A stretch of 64,000 nt of DNA from Candidatus Hydrogenedentota bacterium (GTDB taxonomy: Bacteria; Hydrogenedentota; Hydrogenedentia; Hydrogenedentales; CAITNO01), in assembly GCA_903893795.1 (NCBI GenBank), contig CAITNO010000034.1, forward strand, positions 1 to 64,000, given 5' to 3'. The notes under the pieces are model-generated. The model made no database searches. It had not been told where the DNA came from and was given only the letters and a program-made list of their open reading frames with translations. This document shows positions 2,363 to 27,767 of the stretch, piece by piece (position 1 is the first letter of the stretch; each line of letters starts with the position of its first letter). The translations under genes and the position numbers were made by a program.

Positions 2363-3700
2363 CTACGACCTGGCGATACGGAACCCGATGTTGTAATACG
2401 TGCTCACCGGGATGCTCAGGTCTCGGCGTGCGGTGCGGCAGTCGTAGAATATGCTGCTCACGCTGCCACCCCGAACGTCGCGGGACGTGCCTGATACCGG
2501 CCCCGTCGGATCGGTCTGCGCACCTGAACTGTAGAGGTCGTTCCAGTCACCGCACCACTCCGTAACATTCCCGCTCATGTCATAGCAGCCCACCGGGCTC
2601 ACACTGTTCACCGTCGGGATAGCCCCGTTCGGACTCACCCGAACGCCATCAAACCATGCATCCGGTGCCGTGTACGGCGCCGCCGCCAGCCCGAGAGGGT
2701 TGACATAGTTTAATCCTGTATAGTAGTTGCACCGGTCATCCCCCGTCAGACTGTCGGCCGTAAACCCGTAAATCCAGTGCCGTGCGCCGTCCCACGCCGC
2801 CGCCCGTTCCCATTCCGCCTCGGTGGGCAGGCGATACCCGCCAGGCATCGGCGGTGCCACCGTCAACGGCCACTCCCCGGTGGTCATGTCATAACACTGC
2901 GTCAGCCCCTCCTGTTGGCTCAGCCAGTTGCAGAACGCAGCCGCACCATACCACGACACCAGAACCATCGGATGCATGTCCATCGAATAGACCGTCGTGC
3001 CGGGCAGTCCTGTAATGCTCTTCGACGAAAACATCCCGCCCGCATACTGGATGGTGCAGTCGGGAGACGAGAAGGAGACGATGAGATAGCGGCTGCCGCC
3101 GCTTCCACCGGCGAAAATGTCGCCCACGCCCGCCCAGGGCGTCCCTCCCGCATCACTGTACAGATATCCCTGTACCTTCGCCCAGTTCAACACGTCACAA
3201 TACTTCTTGTTTGTCACCTCGCACCTGCCGATCTGGTACGCGCTAAGCGACACCGAATGCGCCGGCAGTTCATTGAGGCCGGCGTATGTGGCGTCATCCC
3301 CCGCAGCGGTCGGGCCCATGACGAATGTCCCCGCCGGAACCGGCACCATTAGAGGACCTTCCCCGGTAATGAAACCCGGCTTCAGCTTCGTGTCTGTTCC
3401 GTTGGCCGTGGTCACCGCCAGCGAGACGTTGTAGTGGCCTGCGGACGCGTAGGTGTGCGAAGGGTTCTGCACGTTGTCGGTCCCGCCGTCGCCAAAGATC
3501 CACGCCCATTGCGTGATCGGCGAATTGCCGGGGGCGGACAGGTCGGTGAACTGCACCGTCAGGGGCGCCGGGTCCGACGTCACGTCCGCGCTGAAATCCG
3601 CCGTGGGCCCGCCCAAACCCGGCAAACACCCCGTAACGAAAACACACGCGGCGGATAGGAAGAGCACTAGCGTATTGACCGCGAATCTGGATGTAAACAA
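2363..3700 (-). CDS. Lipoprotein with PKD domain and FGE/SUMF1-fold domain (divergent copy 2, TTG start)
   Basis: About 445 aa. The start is inferred to be TTG at 3698-3700 because AAGGAG lies exactly 6 nt upstream and the product then begins with a clean signal peptide ending FVTGC; longer ATG starts add a charged, non-signal N-terminus. Order: lipobox, PKD domain (FGDGGTDNVQNPSHTYAS), FGE-fold domain with AGTFVMG, RLPTEAEWERAA, GNVTEWCGDW and GFRIARS. The FGE domain carries extra loops (about 80 aa longer than its neighbours) and is the most divergent of the array. The copper-site cysteine pair is reduced to one (YDCRTARR). Predicted envelope lipoprotein of unknown ligand. Confidence 0.82.
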   Translation of the reverse strand: MFTSRFAVNTLVLFLSAACVFVTGCLPGLGGPTADFSADVTSDPAPLTVQFTDLSAPGNSPITQWAWIFGDGGTDNVQNPSHTYASAGHYNVSLAVTTANGTDTKLKPGFITGEGPLMVPVPAGTFVMGPTAAGDDATYAGLNELPAHSVSLSAYQIGRCEVTNKKYCDVLNWAKVQGYLYSDAGGTPWAGVGDIFAGGSGGSRYLIVSFSSPDCTIQYAGGMFSSKSITGLPGTTVYSMDMHPMVLVSWYGAAAFCNWLSQQEGLTQCYDMTTGEWPLTVAPPMPGGYRLPTEAEWERAAAWDGARHWIYGFTADSLTGDDRCNYYTGLNYVNPLGLAAAPYTAPDAWFDGVRVSPNGAIPTVNSVSPVGCYDMSGNVTEWCGDWNDLYSSGAQTDPTGPVSGTSRDVRGGSVSSIFYDCRTARRDLSIPVSTYYNIGFRIARS

Positions 3701-21236: not shown

Positions 21237-21473
21237 CTGCGCTGCGTGCCGTGAAGTCTTGCGCGGAAAAACGGAAGGCACCACTGGTGCCCGCATTGTA
21301 ATTCCGGGCAGGGCGACCTTCCAACGGCAATGCAGGAACACGACTCCCGCTATACAAGCACCGATAAAAGGGGGTATAGTAAATTCCCATACGGCCTGGG
21401 TTCACTGCTTTTGTGCGAACTTGGACTTCGAATTAAGTCAGGCCGACGCCCCCCAAACAGGAGGAAATGCACC

Positions 21474-24400
21474 ATGCCGCAAAAATGTCTTGTAAACATG
21501 GGGATTGGAATGCTCATGGTGGGATTGCTGCTGTCGTTCGCCGCCACGGCGGCAACGATGGAGAAAGACACTCTTTCCACGGCGGCCATGCAGTACGGTT
21601 ACGGGGCGCTCACCTCGAATGTCGCCTACGCTGCCGATTCATCGACCTTCCTTGCCGGTTCGCGGGATGGCAAGGCGCGCATCTTCACCGTCAGCACGGG
21701 AGCGGTCGTTCGCACCCTTGCCGGGCACTCGGATGCGGTGCTGGCCGTGGCATACTCCGCCGACGGCACCCAAATCATCACCGGTTCCGCCGACAAAACC
21801 GCCAAGTTGTGGAACGCGGACACGGGCGGTCTCCTTTTCACCTGCACCGGGCACACAGATGCCGTCACCTCTGTGGTGTTTTCGCAAGATGGCACCCAGG
21901 TGCTCACGGGATCAAAAGACAACACGGCAAAACTGTGGAACACGGTAAGCGGCTTAATTGTCCGCACCTTCAGCGGGCACAGCGCCGCAGTCAACGCCGT
22001 GGCGCTCTCCACCGACGGCATCCTGGCGCTCACCGGTTCGGCGGACGGCACGGCCAAACTGTGGCCCCTGGCCACGGCCGTGGAAATCCGCAGTTTCACC
22101 GGGCACACGGAATCGGTTAATTCCGTGGCCTTCAGCGCCGATGGAAGCAAGGCGCTCAGCGCTTCGTCGGACAACACGGCAAAGCTGTGGGATACGGCGA
22201 CAGCTACGGAGCTTCGCTCCTTCTCCGGCCACACCGGGTCCGTCAACACCGCGGCATTTTCGTCCGATGAGGGGACTGTGCTTACCGGCTCCGGCGACCA
22301 CACGGCGAGACTCTGGAATGCCTCGACAGGCGTTCAGACGCTCACCTTCACAGGACATGCGGGTTCTGTGACCTCGGCAGTGTTTTCTTCTGACGGCACC
22401 AAGGTGCTTACGGGTTCCCTGGACAACACCATAAGACTGTGGGAGGCCGCCAGCGCCGCGACAGTTCAGTCGTTCAACGGTTTCACAGACCCTTGTTTCT
22501 CCGTGGCGTTTTCACCGGACGGAAGCCGGTTGCTCACCAGCGGCGGACAGGGTTGTGCCCCCGGTCAGCTTGGATGCGTTCTGTCAGGCCCCCCAAGGGG
22601 CGCCGCATTGCTTTGGAACACCGTGACCGGCAAGGAAACGCGCGCCTTTGCAGGACAGGCGGAGCCCGTGGTGTCGGTGGCGTTTTCTCCCGATGGAACG
22701 AAAGTGCTCGGTTCCTGGTGGGATGGTTCGGCAAGCCTGTGGGACGCCGTCACCGCCTCGGAAATCCTGCATTTCGCCGGGGAAACGGGCCTGATGAATC
22801 CCCTGGCGTTTTCGCCGAACGGAACCGCCGTGGTTACGGAATCTACACCGGGTACGGCGACCCTATGGAACGCCACCACCGGCGCCATTGTCCAGACCTT
22901 TACTGGACACACCCTCTACCTCTCGTCCGTGGCGTTCTCGCCCGATGGAACACAGTTGCTCACCGGATCGTGGGACAAAACAGCCAAGCTTTGGAACGCC
23001 GCCACCGGCGCGGAAATCCGCTCTTTCGCCGGACACAGTTCCGCCGTGTCGTCCGTGGCATTCTCGCCCGATGGCAAGCAGGTGCTTACCGCTTCGGCTG
23101 ACAAGACGGCCAAGTTGTGGGACGCCGGGACTGCCGGGGAAATCCGTAGCTTCGCCGGGCATGCCTCCGAAGTCAATTCCGTGGCGTGCTCGCCCGACGG
23201 AACGCAGGTGCTTACCGGGTCAGAGGACAAGACCGCAAAACTCTGGGATCTGGCCACAGGCGCGGAACTCCGCAGCTATGCGGGGCACCTGGCTGGAGTG
23301 CGCGCGCGCTTTTCGCCAGACGGCGCCCGGGTGATCACCGCATCCGCCGACGGCACGGCAAAGTTGTGGCCGGTCTCGGGACAGTCCGTTGATGTGTCCG
23401 TGCCCGATGTGGCGGGACAGACACAGTCCGCCGCGGTCGAGGCCATTGCCGCCGCAGGGTTGGCCAGCGGCCCGGTAACAACCCAATGCAGCGACACCGT
23501 GGCGGCGGGCCTTGTCATCGGCCAAAACCCCAATGCCGGACAGTCCGCACCGCTGGGAAGCGCGGTGACGCTTCAGATTTCTTCGGGCCCCTGCTCCGTA
23601 ACGGTGCCGGACCTGACGGGACAGACGCAGACGGATGCGGAAGCGACGCTTGCCGGACTGCATCTTTCCACCGGTGCGGTGACGCAGCAATGTAGCAACA
23701 CCGCTGCGTCCGGCCGGGTCGCACACCAAAGCCCGGCGGCGGGCAGCCTGGTGCCCCCCGGCGGCGGCGTGGGGTTGGTAATCTCCACAGGTCCCTGCAG
23801 CGTGACCGTGCCAAATGTGACGGGACAGACGCAGGCCGCGGCGGGCACGGTGCTTGGCAACGCAGGTCTGGCGACCGGTGCCGTGACCCTCCAGTGCAGC
23901 AACACCATTGCGGCGGGCCTGGTCATCAGCCAAAGCCCGCAGGCGGGCCAGCAGGCACCGTACGGCAGTGCCGTGGCACTGGTGGTGTCATCGGGCGTCT
24001 GCAACGTCAGCGCGCCCGACCTGGTGGGCAAAACCCAGGAAGCTGCAGCCACTGCGTTGACGACGGCCCATCTCACCGTGGGCGACGTGGCGCAACAGTG
24101 CAGCAACACCGTGGCGGCCGGGTTCGTGATCAGCCAGACCCCGGCAGCGGGAGAAGCGGCGCCCTATGGCAGCGGCGTGGCCCTGCTGCTATCCTCGGGA
24201 CCCTGCAACGTGACCGTGCCAAGTGTGACAGGGCAAACGCAGACGGCGGCAAGCGCCGCGCTCAGTGCGGCAGGCCTCCTCACCGGCCTGGTGAACCAGC
24301 AGTGCAGCGCCACCGTGGCATCGGGACAGATCATCAGCCAGACGCCCGCGGCGGGACAGGCGGCGCCTTACGGCAGCGCCGTGGCGCTTGTGGTGTCAAC

Positions 24401-25562
24401 CGGCGCATGCACCGTGACAACGCCGAACGTCGTGGGCCAGTCGCAGTTTTCGGCGACCGCCGCAATCGCCGCGGCAGGCCTGGTCACCGGCACGCTGACC
24501 GAACAATGCAACGCCACTGTGGCGGCAGGTCTCATCCTCAGCCAAACACCGGCGGCGGGCGGACAGGCCCCCATCGGAAGCGCCGTGGCGTTGACGGTAT
24601 CAACGGGACCGTGCAAAACGACCGTGCCCAACGTGGTTGGCCAGACGCAGACTGCGGCGGACGCCGCGCTCACCGGTGCCCATCTGACCCCCGGCGCCAT
24701 AACCCGGCTGTGCAGTGACACCGTGCAGGCGGGCAGTGTAATCGCACAGAGCCCCGCAGGGAACTCGGAGGCAATCGTTGGCAGCGCCGTTGCGCTGACA
24801 CTATCGGCGGGACCATGCAGTGTGACCGTGCCAAATGTGGCGGGACAGACCCAGTCCGCGGCAACGGCGGCAATAGCCGGCGTCCACCTGGGGGTTGCTT
24901 CGGTCGGCCACCAGTGCAGCGACAGCCTGGCAGAGAACCTCGTTGTCAGCCAAACCCCGGCGGCGGGCACAACGGTGGCCAACGGCGACACCGTAGTCCT
25001 GATGGTGTCCTCCGGACCCTGCAACCCGGCGGTGCCCAATGTGGTGGGCCAGCAGCAGGTTGCCGCGATGATGGCCCTGACCGCCGCGAATCTGGCCACC
25101 AGTTCCGTCACCGAGCAGTGCAACAATACGGTGGCGGCAGGGCTGGTGTTCCTCCAGGATCCGGCGGCGGGAACCGTCCTGCCTGCCGGCAGCACGGTCG
25201 CCCTGTTTGTCTCCACCGGCCCCTGCGAAGGCACCCCGCCGACCGAGGCGGAGCTCCGCGCGGCACTCGCCGCGGCCTTCTCCTCGGCCGACAGCAACGG
25301 AGACGGCACAGTCAGCTATGTGGAGGCGCTGGACCACCTGCCCGGGCTTACAGAGGCGGTTTTCAACGCGGTCGATTCGGACGGGAACGGCCAGATCAGC
25401 CTTGCCGAAGCGCAGGCGGGGTCGGGCAGTGGATGTGCGGGATGCTCCGGCGGCAAGTCGCTCTTCACCCCCGGAAACCTGAAGAAGTCTTTCAGCGACC
25501 TTTTCCTGGGAGCACTGAGCCTGACGATGCTCCTGGCTGCCTCAAAGGTAAAACGCCAATAA
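21474..25562 (+). CDS. Secreted WD40-PASTA-EF-hand protein with C-terminal sorting-like tail
   Basis: 1362 aa. AGGAGG lies 9 nt before the ATG. A signal peptide (about 1-28) is followed by 14 WD40 repeats (about 40-638; GHxxxVxSVAFSPDG...LTGSxDKTAKLW), enough for two seven-bladed propellers. Repeats 1 and 8-10 are degenerate, and repeat 8 carries a Cys-containing insertion. Nine PASTA domains follow (about 640-1250), each of about 68 aa with one mid-domain Cys (QCS/QCN) and one terminal Cys (GPC). An EF-hand pair comes next (DSNGDGTVSY, DSDGNGQISL). The end has GCAGCSGGK, a hydrophobic segment and a basic KVKRQ. Probably exported and anchored; ligand unknown, though PASTA domains in other proteins bind muropeptides or beta-lactams. 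Confidence 0.88.
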   Translation: MPQKCLVNMGIGMLMVGLLLSFAATAATMEKDTLSTAAMQYGYGALTSNVAYAADSSTFLAGSRDGKARIFTVSTGAVVRTLAGHSDAVLAVAYSADGTQIITGSADKTAKLWNADTGGLLFTCTGHTDAVTSVVFSQDGTQVLTGSKDNTAKLWNTVSGLIVRTFSGHSAAVNAVALSTDGILALTGSADGTAKLWPLATAVEIRSFTGHTESVNSVAFSADGSKALSASSDNTAKLWDTATATELRSFSGHTGSVNTAAFSSDEGTVLTGSGDHTARLWNASTGVQTLTFTGHAGSVTSAVFSSDGTKVLTGSLDNTIRLWEAASAATVQSFNGFTDPCFSVAFSPDGSRLLTSGGQGCAPGQLGCVLSGPPRGAALLWNTVTGKETRAFAGQAEPVVSVAFSPDGTKVLGSWWDGSASLWDAVTASEILHFAGETGLMNPLAFSPNGTAVVTESTPGTATLWNATTGAIVQTFTGHTLYLSSVAFSPDGTQLLTGSWDKTAKLWNAATGAEIRSFAGHSSAVSSVAFSPDGKQVLTASADKTAKLWDAGTAGEIRSFAGHASEVNSVACSPDGTQVLTGSEDKTAKLWDLATGAELRSYAGHLAGVRARFSPDGARVITASADGTAKLWPVSGQSVDVSVPDVAGQTQSAAVEAIAAAGLASGPVTTQCSDTVAAGLVIGQNPNAGQSAPLGSAVTLQISSGPCSVTVPDLTGQTQTDAEATLAGLHLSTGAVTQQCSNTAASGRVAHQSPAAGSLVPPGGGVGLVISTGPCSVTVPNVTGQTQAAAGTVLGNAGLATGAVTLQCSNTIAAGLVISQSPQAGQQAPYGSAVALVVSSGVCNVSAPDLVGKTQEAAATALTTAHLTVGDVAQQCSNTVAAGFVISQTPAAGEAAPYGSGVALLLSSGPCNVTVPSVTGQTQTAASAALSAAGLLTGLVNQQCSATVASGQIISQTPAAGQAAPYGSAVALVVSTGACTVTTPNVVGQSQFSATAAIAAAGLVTGTLTEQCNATVAAGLILSQTPAAGGQAPIGSAVALTVSTGPCKTTVPNVVGQTQTAADAALTGAHLTPGAITRLCSDTVQAGSVIAQSPAGNSEAIVGSAVALTLSAGPCSVTVPNVAGQTQSAATAAIAGVHLGVASVGHQCSDSLAENLVVSQTPAAGTTVANGDTVVLMVSSGPCNPAVPNVVGQQQVAAMMALTAANLATSSVTEQCNNTVAAGLVFLQDPAAGTVLPAGSTVALFVSTGPCEGTPPTEAELRAALAAAFSSADSNGDGTVSYVEALDHLPGLTEAVFNAVDSDGNGQISLAEAQAGSGSGCAGCSGGKSLFTPGNLKKSFSDLFLGALSLTMLLAASKVKRQ

Positions 25563-25607: not shown

Positions 25608-27767
25608 TTACAGTGACTCCAGCAGCGGCGGCGTGTCCCCCTCGGCATCCGGGGCGGCGGCCTCCGCGACTGGTTCGGGCGCGGGAGCAATAAAGGTCCC
25701 GGGGGGGCGGGTGCCGCTGATGTAGGCTTCCTTGTAGCTGCCCCCTTCGACTCCCGTGAACCGGTCGATGTTGAAGAACTCGACCCCGTAAGGCACGTCG
25801 AAATCACGGACGGGCAGCCCTTCCTCCGCCTCGGTCATGAATTCGGTCCATACCGGACAGGAAAGGCGGCCGCCGGTGTAGTCGCGCCCCTTGCCCAGCG
25901 AACGCCCGTCGCGGTAGCCAATCCACACCACCGTGGTATAGTCGGCGGTGTACCCGCAAAACCAGGCGTCGCGGCTGTTGTTGGTGGTGCCGGTCTTGCC
26001 GGCCACGGGGCGCTTAAGCGACGACGCGCGCCATCCCGTTGGATAGAAACCGTTTCCGGGCGTGCACACCCCCTCCATCATGTGCAGTGTCACATAGGCC
26101 ACGCGGGGGTCCATGGCCTGCTCCACGCGCGTTTCGTTGTGGTAGTCAAAACGCTGCACACCGTCGCGGTCCCGAATGTCGGTGACCATGACGGACTCGT
26201 AACGCATTCCGCCGTTGGGAAAACAGGAATAGGCCACACAATGGTCCAGCGGCTTGACCTCGGGCGAGCCCAGTGCGATGGTCAGGCCCTCCACGTCGGT
26301 CGGTATGCCGCAGCGCCGCAGATAGGAGCGCACCACCGGCGCGCCCACCATGTCGGCCAGCTTCACCGACACCACGTTGAGCGACATCTCCAGGGCATGG
26401 CGTATGGGAATGGGTCCGTGATAACTGTTGTCGAAATTGTGGGGCGACCACACCTTGCCGTTCGGTGCGACGCGGGTAAAGGGCTCATCGACAATAACAG
26501 TCGACGGGGTGATGCCGCTGCCGATGGCCGAGGCCCACACAAAGGGCTTGATGCTGGAGCCCGGCTGGCGCCTGGCCTGGGTGACGGTGTTGTACTTTTC
26601 GTGCTCGTAATCGCGCCCGCCCACCATGGCCCGCACGAATCCGCGGTATTGGGGACGGTTGTCGATGCAGACCAGCGCGCCGGCAGCGGGGGTGAACTCG
26701 TCCGGCTTGCCCTGCCGTTCAAACATCTTGCGCTGCTTGTTGTCGAATTCATCAAGCCCCTTGCGCAGGGCACGCTCGGCGGCATCCTGCAGCCGCATGT
26801 CGACGGTGGTGTAAATCTCCAGCCCGTCCTGGAAGATCTTCTCGTTCTCGTATTTGTCCTGGACGAACTTGCGCACCTCTTCGACGAAATAGGGCGCCTT
26901 GAAACGCTTGGAGGGGGTGATGGCGGCGGCGCGGTTTTCCGCGATCTGCTCGGGCTTGACCACCTGCGCGGCCAAGTCCTCCGCCACAGCGGCGTCATGC
27001 TCCGCCTGGGTGATAAAACCCTCATCGAGCATCTGTTTGAGCACGACACCGCGCCGGTTGCGCGCGTTTTCGAGGTTGCGGATGGGGTTGTTGGTGTTGG
27101 GCCAGCGCGTCAGCCCGGCCAGCGTCGCGGCCTCGCCCAGCGTAAGGTCCTGGCAACTCCTGCCGAAGTATTGCTGCGAGGCGGCCTCAACACCCCAGGC
27201 GCTGATCCCGAGGAAAATCTGGTTGAGGTAGAGTTCGAGAATTTCGTCCTTGGTGAACTTGCGCTCGATCTGGAGGGCCACCAGCGCCTCGCGCCACTTG
27301 CGTTTGTACGAGTGCTCCGTGCCCACCTTGAGTTCATTGATGTTGCGCACAACCTGCATGGTGATCGTGCTGGCCCCGCGCACCCGGCCTGTTTGAGCCG
27401 CGTCCAGGGCCACGCTCAGATACGCCTCGGGGCGGACACCCTTGTGCTGGTAAAAGGTGGCGTCCTCAGTGGCGATAAAGGCTTTCTGCACCTTCAGCGG
27501 AATGTCGCAGAGGCGCAGCAACTGCCGCTCCTCCACTGTGAATTCGGCGAGCAGTTGGCCATCACTGCTGAAGACTTTGCTGCCCACCTTGGGCCGGAAA
27601 TCGGCGAATGCCTGGGACACATCGGCGGTTTCGTCGTACACCATCCAGAGAAACAGCCCCAGCCCGGCACCCCAGCATGCGCCGAGGATGAGCATGATCA
27701 AGATGAACAACCCGGCGCAGCCACGGCGGCGCACGGGTTCCTTTTCGTTGTTTTCTGGTTCCTGCAT
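25608..27767 (-). CDS. Class A penicillin-binding protein (PBP1A-type)
   Basis: 719 aa bifunctional murein synthase. The ATG at 27767 is preceded by CAGGA. A membrane anchor spans about 17-43. The GT51 glycosyltransferase domain has the catalytic Glu in ATEDATFYQHKG (Glu101) and GASTITMQ. The transpeptidase has Ser404-x-x-Lys407 (SSIK), Ser462-x-Asn464 (SLN) and Lys591-Thr-Gly-Thr (KTGT). A Pro/Ala/Glu-rich C-terminus ends at ESL. Last gene of a run with the Pro/Ala-rich secreted protein and the VanZ-like protein; 61 nt separates it from the latter. Confidence 0.96.
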   Translation of the reverse strand: MQEPENNEKEPVRRRGCAGLFILIMLILGACWGAGLGLFLWMVYDETADVSQAFADFRPKVGSKVFSSDGQLLAEFTVEERQLLRLCDIPLKVQKAFIATEDATFYQHKGVRPEAYLSVALDAAQTGRVRGASTITMQVVRNINELKVGTEHSYKRKWREALVALQIERKFTKDEILELYLNQIFLGISAWGVEAASQQYFGRSCQDLTLGEAATLAGLTRWPNTNNPIRNLENARNRRGVVLKQMLDEGFITQAEHDAAVAEDLAAQVVKPEQIAENRAAAITPSKRFKAPYFVEEVRKFVQDKYENEKIFQDGLEIYTTVDMRLQDAAERALRKGLDEFDNKQRKMFERQGKPDEFTPAAGALVCIDNRPQYRGFVRAMVGGRDYEHEKYNTVTQARRQPGSSIKPFVWASAIGSGITPSTVIVDEPFTRVAPNGKVWSPHNFDNSYHGPIPIRHALEMSLNVVSVKLADMVGAPVVRSYLRRCGIPTDVEGLTIALGSPEVKPLDHCVAYSCFPNGGMRYESVMVTDIRDRDGVQRFDYHNETRVEQAMDPRVAYVTLHMMEGVCTPGNGFYPTGWRASSLKRPVAGKTGTTNNSRDAWFCGYTADYTTVVWIGYRDGRSLGKGRDYTGGRLSCPVWTEFMTEAEEGLPVRDFDVPYGVEFFNIDRFTGVEGGSYKEAYISGTRPPGTFIAPAPEPVAEAAAPDAEGDTPPLLESL

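Follow-up and report, generated by a model that had tools for sequence, protein, structure and literature searches.

We analysed a 64,000-nucleotide stretch of DNA from a Candidatus Hydrogenedentota bacterium (assembly GCA_903893795.1, contig CAITNO010000034.1, positions 1 to 64,000; hereafter the window), in which a gene at 21474-25562 on the forward strand encodes a protein of 1,362 amino acids (aa), referred to here as P0001. From its N to its C terminus, P0001 combines a signal-peptide-like start, 14 WD40 repeats, nine PASTA domains, a pair of EF-hands and a hydrophobic tail with cysteines. This tail is shared by many proteins of the same genome and of its relatives, and it is a more valuable finding than the architecture of P0001 itself. 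The reading that we favour, with a probability of about 60%, is that P0001 belongs to the cargoes of a surface-display scheme of Hydrogenedentota, built on a rear cassette and a sorting-type tail.

The domain architecture of P0001 is confirmed as real and far beyond chance, with Pfam profiles recovering both WD40 (E 1.4e-123) and PASTA (PF03793; nine stretches, E 8.5e-119). The same domain calls returned no transpeptidase domain and no kinase or other cytoplasmic output domain. The open reading frame (ORF) spans 21330-25562 on the forward strand, and we assigned its start to the ATG at 21474 because of the ribosome-binding site AGGAGG at 21459-21464, in agreement with an initial annotation of this DNA made without database searches. 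The sequence also supports that annotation in its description of a scaffold-like exported protein in which two propellers are followed by nine PASTA domains, by EF-hands and by a tail.

A C-terminal tail shared by unrelated proteins

The tail of P0001 (25419-25559) combines a GC-x-x-C signature with a Lys-containing spacer, a hydrophobic helix and basic residues at the end (GSGCAGCSGGK, spacer, LFLGALSLTMLLAAS, KVKRQ), with the hydrophobic stretch at 25500-25544. We compared the last 47 aa of P0001 with the source genome, a 7.0-Mb assembly of 159 contigs, and found 19 other matching places at E <= 10, most of them at E < 0.01. Read in context, nearly all of these places coincide with the C terminus of a longer ORF, and many of these ORFs have a signal-peptide-like start. 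In all, about 20-25 other proteins of this genome end in the tail. A profile built from 16 tails of the source genome, which undercounts distant tails, matched 26 places in this genome and up to 31 per relative, and had at least one match in 39 of 100 genomes (E <= 0.1). Outside the order the tail is essentially absent, as only two of 32 genomes gave one marginal match each (E 0.04 and 0.06). The tail region had no match in the named genome collection.

To describe the pattern we relied on a set of 48 tails, including 31 ORFs found by the profile (30 in relatives, plus P0001). In each of these 31 ORFs the match ends 0-4 residues before the stop codon. A cysteine lies ahead of the helix in 47 of the 48 tails and at least two do so in 46, while 45 have a basic end. 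The Lys-containing spacer between the cysteines and the helix measures about 10-17 residues, and a GDLFLxGLxL motif leads into the helix. Distant families of the order retain this layout: a Glu/Gly-rich or EF-hand run comes first, then GC-x(0-2)-C and the spacer, and GDLFLxGL precedes the basic end.

Two side observations concern other tails. At three loci of the source genome (L030 on contig C100, L033 on C1 and L036 on C71) the tails stop short or lose the pattern, as if through frameshift, decay or sequencing errors. At locus L116, an ORF ending at 3079 on the reverse strand carries an exosortase-type tail that lacks cysteine (VPLNIAPLLILGLL...RKR; VPLNIAPLLILGLLVVSLHTLRKRTLR) near an XrtH-like exosortase, so that Hydrogenedentota seem to have two types of tail, cysteine and cysteine-free.

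The proteins that bear the tail have mutually unrelated fronts. Among 17 tail proteins of the source genome, Pfam identified WD40 (two proteins), beta-helix, TIG with 14 PASTA units, kelch with Ig-like domains, EF-hands alone and others. PASTA arrays are common among them, with one to 14 units (1-21 when relatives are included), and the tail often stands behind PASTA and EF-hands, in a cassette that is also found on beta-helix, TIG and other fronts. A CxxCH protein belongs to the same set: at locus L029 (contig C32, about 33.2-35.6 kb), two adjoining tail proteins, one of them with a PASTA array, contain CTLCH motifs. The motifs resemble a c-type haem site, and the two proteins are possibly surface-displayed and cytochrome-like.

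The succession of WD40, PASTA and tail is itself a recurrent family within the lineage. We found it in a paralogue from the same genome (C85), in four proteins of the congener G001, in two of the congener G002 and in one of a genome from another genus (G007), and hence in four genomes of two genera. The seven proteins from relatives were recovered from 20 regions and share 39-53% identity with P0001. The relatives have either 14 blades with nine, four or seven PASTA units or seven blades with five, six or 12, and the protein from the other genus has 11 detected blades and nine PASTA units; these counts come from small profiles built on P0001, which diverged copies may escape. The first reading of P0001 as a lone, unusual chimera is thus not supported. 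One congener locus (L191, G001 contig C167, 1-9164) holds four tail genes within 9 kb; a tandem pair among them encodes 14-blade WD40 and PASTA proteins and represents a recent local duplication of the architecture.

Propellers, PASTA array and EF-hands of P0001

As read from the sequence, the protein begins with a putative Sec-type signal peptide (MPQK...MGIGMLMVGLLLSFAATA) at 21474-21554, the end of which is approximate. The WD40 part follows. By direct reading of the sequence we located 14 blade ends (LW/IF) between aa 70 and 632, with a rhythm of 42 aa. The rhythm is broken only at blade 8, which measures 58 residues owing to a 16-aa insert that holds Cys361 and Cys368. Since seven blades lie on either side of this single break, we assigned blades 1-7 to a first propeller (aa ~38-325; 21585-22448) and blades 8-14 to a second (aa ~326-633; 22449-23372). 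An AlphaFold2 model of this part from the single sequence consists entirely of blades, with a mean predicted local distance difference test (pLDDT) of 72.7, and its best match in the PDB, by sequence as well as by fold (587 columns), is the highly repetitive propeller 2ymu. Profile, spacing, model and fold match support the WD40 propellers initially annotated. The relative placement of the two propellers is unreliable, given global TM-scores of 0.42-0.45 and a predicted TM-score (pTM) of 0.50. A conserved MQYGYG-like stretch before the first blade (21585-21620), also present in the propeller proteins of loci L191, L200 and L034, is perhaps the propeller-closing strand.

The PASTA array (23400-25229) consists of nine units starting at aa 643 + 68n, each exactly 68 aa long and without indels. 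All nine have a cysteine at unit positions 30 and 65. By eye, these two positions are all-or-none throughout the tail proteins of the source genome: both cysteines are present in P0001, C85, most of C139, C81, C17 and C127, and we found no unit with a single cysteine. Two apparently mixed units flagged by a regular expression, one each way, were pattern misses with two cysteines in the printed sequence. Because the two cysteines are jointly present or absent, a disulfide within each unit is the simplest reading, and it would suit an oxidising, extracytoplasmic location.

The EF-hand pair lies at 25230-25421, with two canonical DxDxDG-type loops (DSNGDGTVSYVE and DSDGNGQISLAE). Weak NCBIfam matches to EF-hand proteins cover aa 1258-1319, and paralogues carry Pfam EF-hands at the equivalent place. 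Both the number of PASTA domains and the EF-hand pair therefore agree with the first reading of the gene.

Proposed display scheme and competing readings

In the scheme that we propose, P0001 would be exported through Sec by means of its N-terminal signal peptide and arrested in the inner membrane by its tail, for which the 48 tails give the pattern GC-x(0-2)-C, spacer, GDLFLxGLxL, helix and basic end. It would then be anchored and processed at the tail and delivered by a type II secretion system (T2SS), of which GspD scores over its cut-off. Once displayed, P0001 may present its nine PASTA units of 68 aa as a rod of set length, with a disulfide probably closing each unit and with the EF-hand pair, presumably Ca2+-binding, as a joint beside the anchor, and the two distal propellers may bind partner proteins or glycans. 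Since the front end is swapped between paralogues, binding specificity would lie in the front and the rear cassette would act as common stalk and anchor. A more specific version, for which we would offer somewhat less than even odds, is that Hydrogenedentota have an undescribed sorting system in which a membrane protease so far not regarded as a sortase cuts the GC-x(0-2)-C/GDLFL tail and probably gives it a lipid anchor, so that adhesin-like modular proteins are displayed on disulfide-stapled PASTA rods.

Several results weigh against surface display through a processed tail, and most of them concern the enzyme. We profiled an XrtH-like exosortase and proteins of the CPBP family, the family of membrane proteases to which myxosortase belongs (PMC11980579), in 67 genomes, of which 22 are tail-rich and 45 tail-poor. 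These genomes are not phylogenetically independent, and shared ancestry inflates the P-values. Among the profiled candidates, none tracks the tail. The XrtH-like exosortase was rejected as the tail enzyme, as it occurs in 18 of the 22 tail-rich and in 32 of the 45 tail-poor genomes (P-value 0.26); most of the order has it, including genomes without the tail. Two CPBP proteins follow the tail only in part. L074 is found in 14 of 22 tail-rich and eight of 45 tail-poor genomes (P-value 3e-4), with eight tail-rich genomes lacking it and the tail-rich family f11 among the absences. L073 is found in 14 tail-rich and 14 tail-poor genomes (P-value 0.012); it was near-perfect in a sample of 13 genomes, yet eight tail-rich genomes are without it in the full set. 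The union of the two covers 21 of the 22 tail-rich genomes, a post hoc choice that we do not count as evidence, and we consider both proteins as leads to a candidate enzyme. The position of the tail cysteines is a further difficulty: they sit 10-17 residues before the helix, which makes the direct cysteine cleavage of the myxosortase model less than obvious here. Finally, the structure model of the PASTA, EF-hand and tail part is unusable (pLDDT 34) and does not show the predicted disulfide geometry or the rod.

Two other CPBP proteins were discarded, namely L071, which has the best myxosortase-like score and is confined to two genera with stray occurrences elsewhere, and L069, which lies 3 kb from a tail gene and is present nearly everywhere. 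The best Mrt_core score was 41 bits against a cut-off of 100 among the proteins scanned, which comprised six of nine CPBP matches. In L074 and in L076, both CPBP-like membrane proteins of the source genome, QQ replaces the expected catalytic EE motif. One XrtH-like exosortase (L077, 2868-3830, forward strand) has an N-terminal region of unusual length and is directly followed by a gene for a small membrane protein.

In a rival reading, the tail is a plain, uncleaved C-terminal transmembrane anchor and P0001 is an inner-membrane protein that crosses the periplasm, with its PASTA units touching murein. A hydrophobic stretch with a basic end suffices for such an anchor, the PASTA region of PrkC binds peptidoglycan fragments (PMC5786024), and a cognate processing enzyme was not found among the profiled candidates. 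However, an anchor of this kind has no need of a GC-x-x-C signature, a Lys spacer and a GDLFL motif conserved across unrelated proteins and several families, and the other tail proteins look adhesin-like or extracellular (beta-helix, TIG, Ig-like, kelch). We consider it unlikely, at about one chance in four. Release of P0001 after removal of the tail, with PASTA and propellers working in an extracellular matrix, is much less probable still: repeat-rich fronts would suit a matrix, and some TraA, a MYXO-CTERM protein, is freed by an unknown protease (PMC11980579), yet cysteines conserved in 47 of 48 tails suggest anchoring, as in MYXO-CTERM.

The convergent neighbour of the gene, at 25608-27767 on the reverse strand, is a class A penicillin-binding protein (PBP; Transgly and Transpeptidase in Pfam), which we judged to lie outside the system. 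The initial annotation was right about its adjacency and orientation, with 45 nucleotides between the two genes; a functional link between them is not supported. The PBP is conserved in relatives (58-88% identity). In ten relatives, among them congeners with an 88% identical PBP, the 1.5 kb flanking this gene on each side, as far as the available sequence reached, held neither a P0001 homologue nor a tail gene, and the other WD40-PASTA-tail loci examined had no PBP. We thus rejected a PBP partnership by synteny. That P0001 is a murein sensor acting with this PBP, as initially proposed, could draw on the 45-nucleotide distance and on the presence of PASTA on PBPs and on PASTA kinases, in the latter of which it binds muropeptides (PMC5786024). 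It is highly improbable in view of the unlinked loci, of the convergent gene pair, which precludes an operon with the PBP, and of the missing output domain. Upstream lie LexA and then SRP54, and the neighbourhood as a whole is uninformative on function.

Comparison with known systems

As a cargo of the proposed display scheme, P0001 offers a handle on how the cell surface is built in an uncultured phylum. In each genome the tail flags 20-30 proteins that could hardly be localised from their other domains, and it likely adds a new cysteine-type C-terminal sorting signal, with the search for its enzyme to follow. Our literature search, which reached few of the subscription journals, yielded no publication that deals with C-terminal sorting in this phylum.

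The closest parallel is MYXO-CTERM/MrtX of Myxococcota (TIGR03901, NF040593), a signal in which a helix and an Arg-rich end follow a cysteine signature and whose cleavage depends on the cysteines (PMC11980579). Our tail set shows the same three-part layout of cysteine signature (generically GCGC in Myxococcota), helix and basic end; in both cases a genome has dozens of secreted proteins, unrelated to one another, that carry the signal, and a T2SS is present. In contrast to MYXO-CTERM, the Hydrogenedentota tail has two cysteines 10-17 residues ahead of the helix, so that the spacer may differ, and an extra GDLFLxGL motif. PEP-CTERM/exosortase and GlyGly-CTERM/rhombosortase also combine a C-terminal signal, a helix and a basic end on many targets per genome, and an XrtH-like exosortase occurs across most of the order, but the Hydrogenedentota tail has neither the PEP nor the Gly-Gly signature. 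In NCBIfam release 20, which holds the known CTERM models, P0001 and its tail had no CTERM match at E <= 10. Three of nine other tails gave sub-threshold matches, the best GlyGly_CTERM score being 9.8 bits against a cut-off of 15.5, for one tail; the tail of P0001 gave none. With no match to the curated models and no cognate enzyme among the profiled candidates, we do not class the tail as a member of MYXO-CTERM. It probably represents a known kind of C-terminal sorting signal, but one that this release does not catalogue.

With Stk1/PknB kinases and PBPs, P0001 shares strong Pfam PASTA scores, here over nine units. It differs from them in having no kinase or transpeptidase domain, a cysteine pair in every unit, and propellers and a sorting-type tail fused to the array. 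The NCBIfam PASTA-kinase (Stk1/PknB) model scores 417.8 bits against a cut-off of 450, from the PASTA region alone (23376-25229). P0001 is not a PASTA kinase, as WD40 stands where the kinase domain would be. Cysteine-paired PASTA arrays of variable length thus occur on proteins other than kinases and PBPs, and since kinase models nearly capture such proteins, there is a practical risk of mis-annotation, with longer arrays possibly misnamed as kinases.

The propellers, finally, resemble the repetitive bacterial WD40 proteins (PDB 2ymu; survey PMC5587647, whose text does not mention PASTA), which have comparable 42-aa blades, of which P0001 has 14. Unlike these, P0001 is apparently extracytoplasmic, and its WD40 blades are followed by PASTA units, EF-hands and a sorting-type tail.

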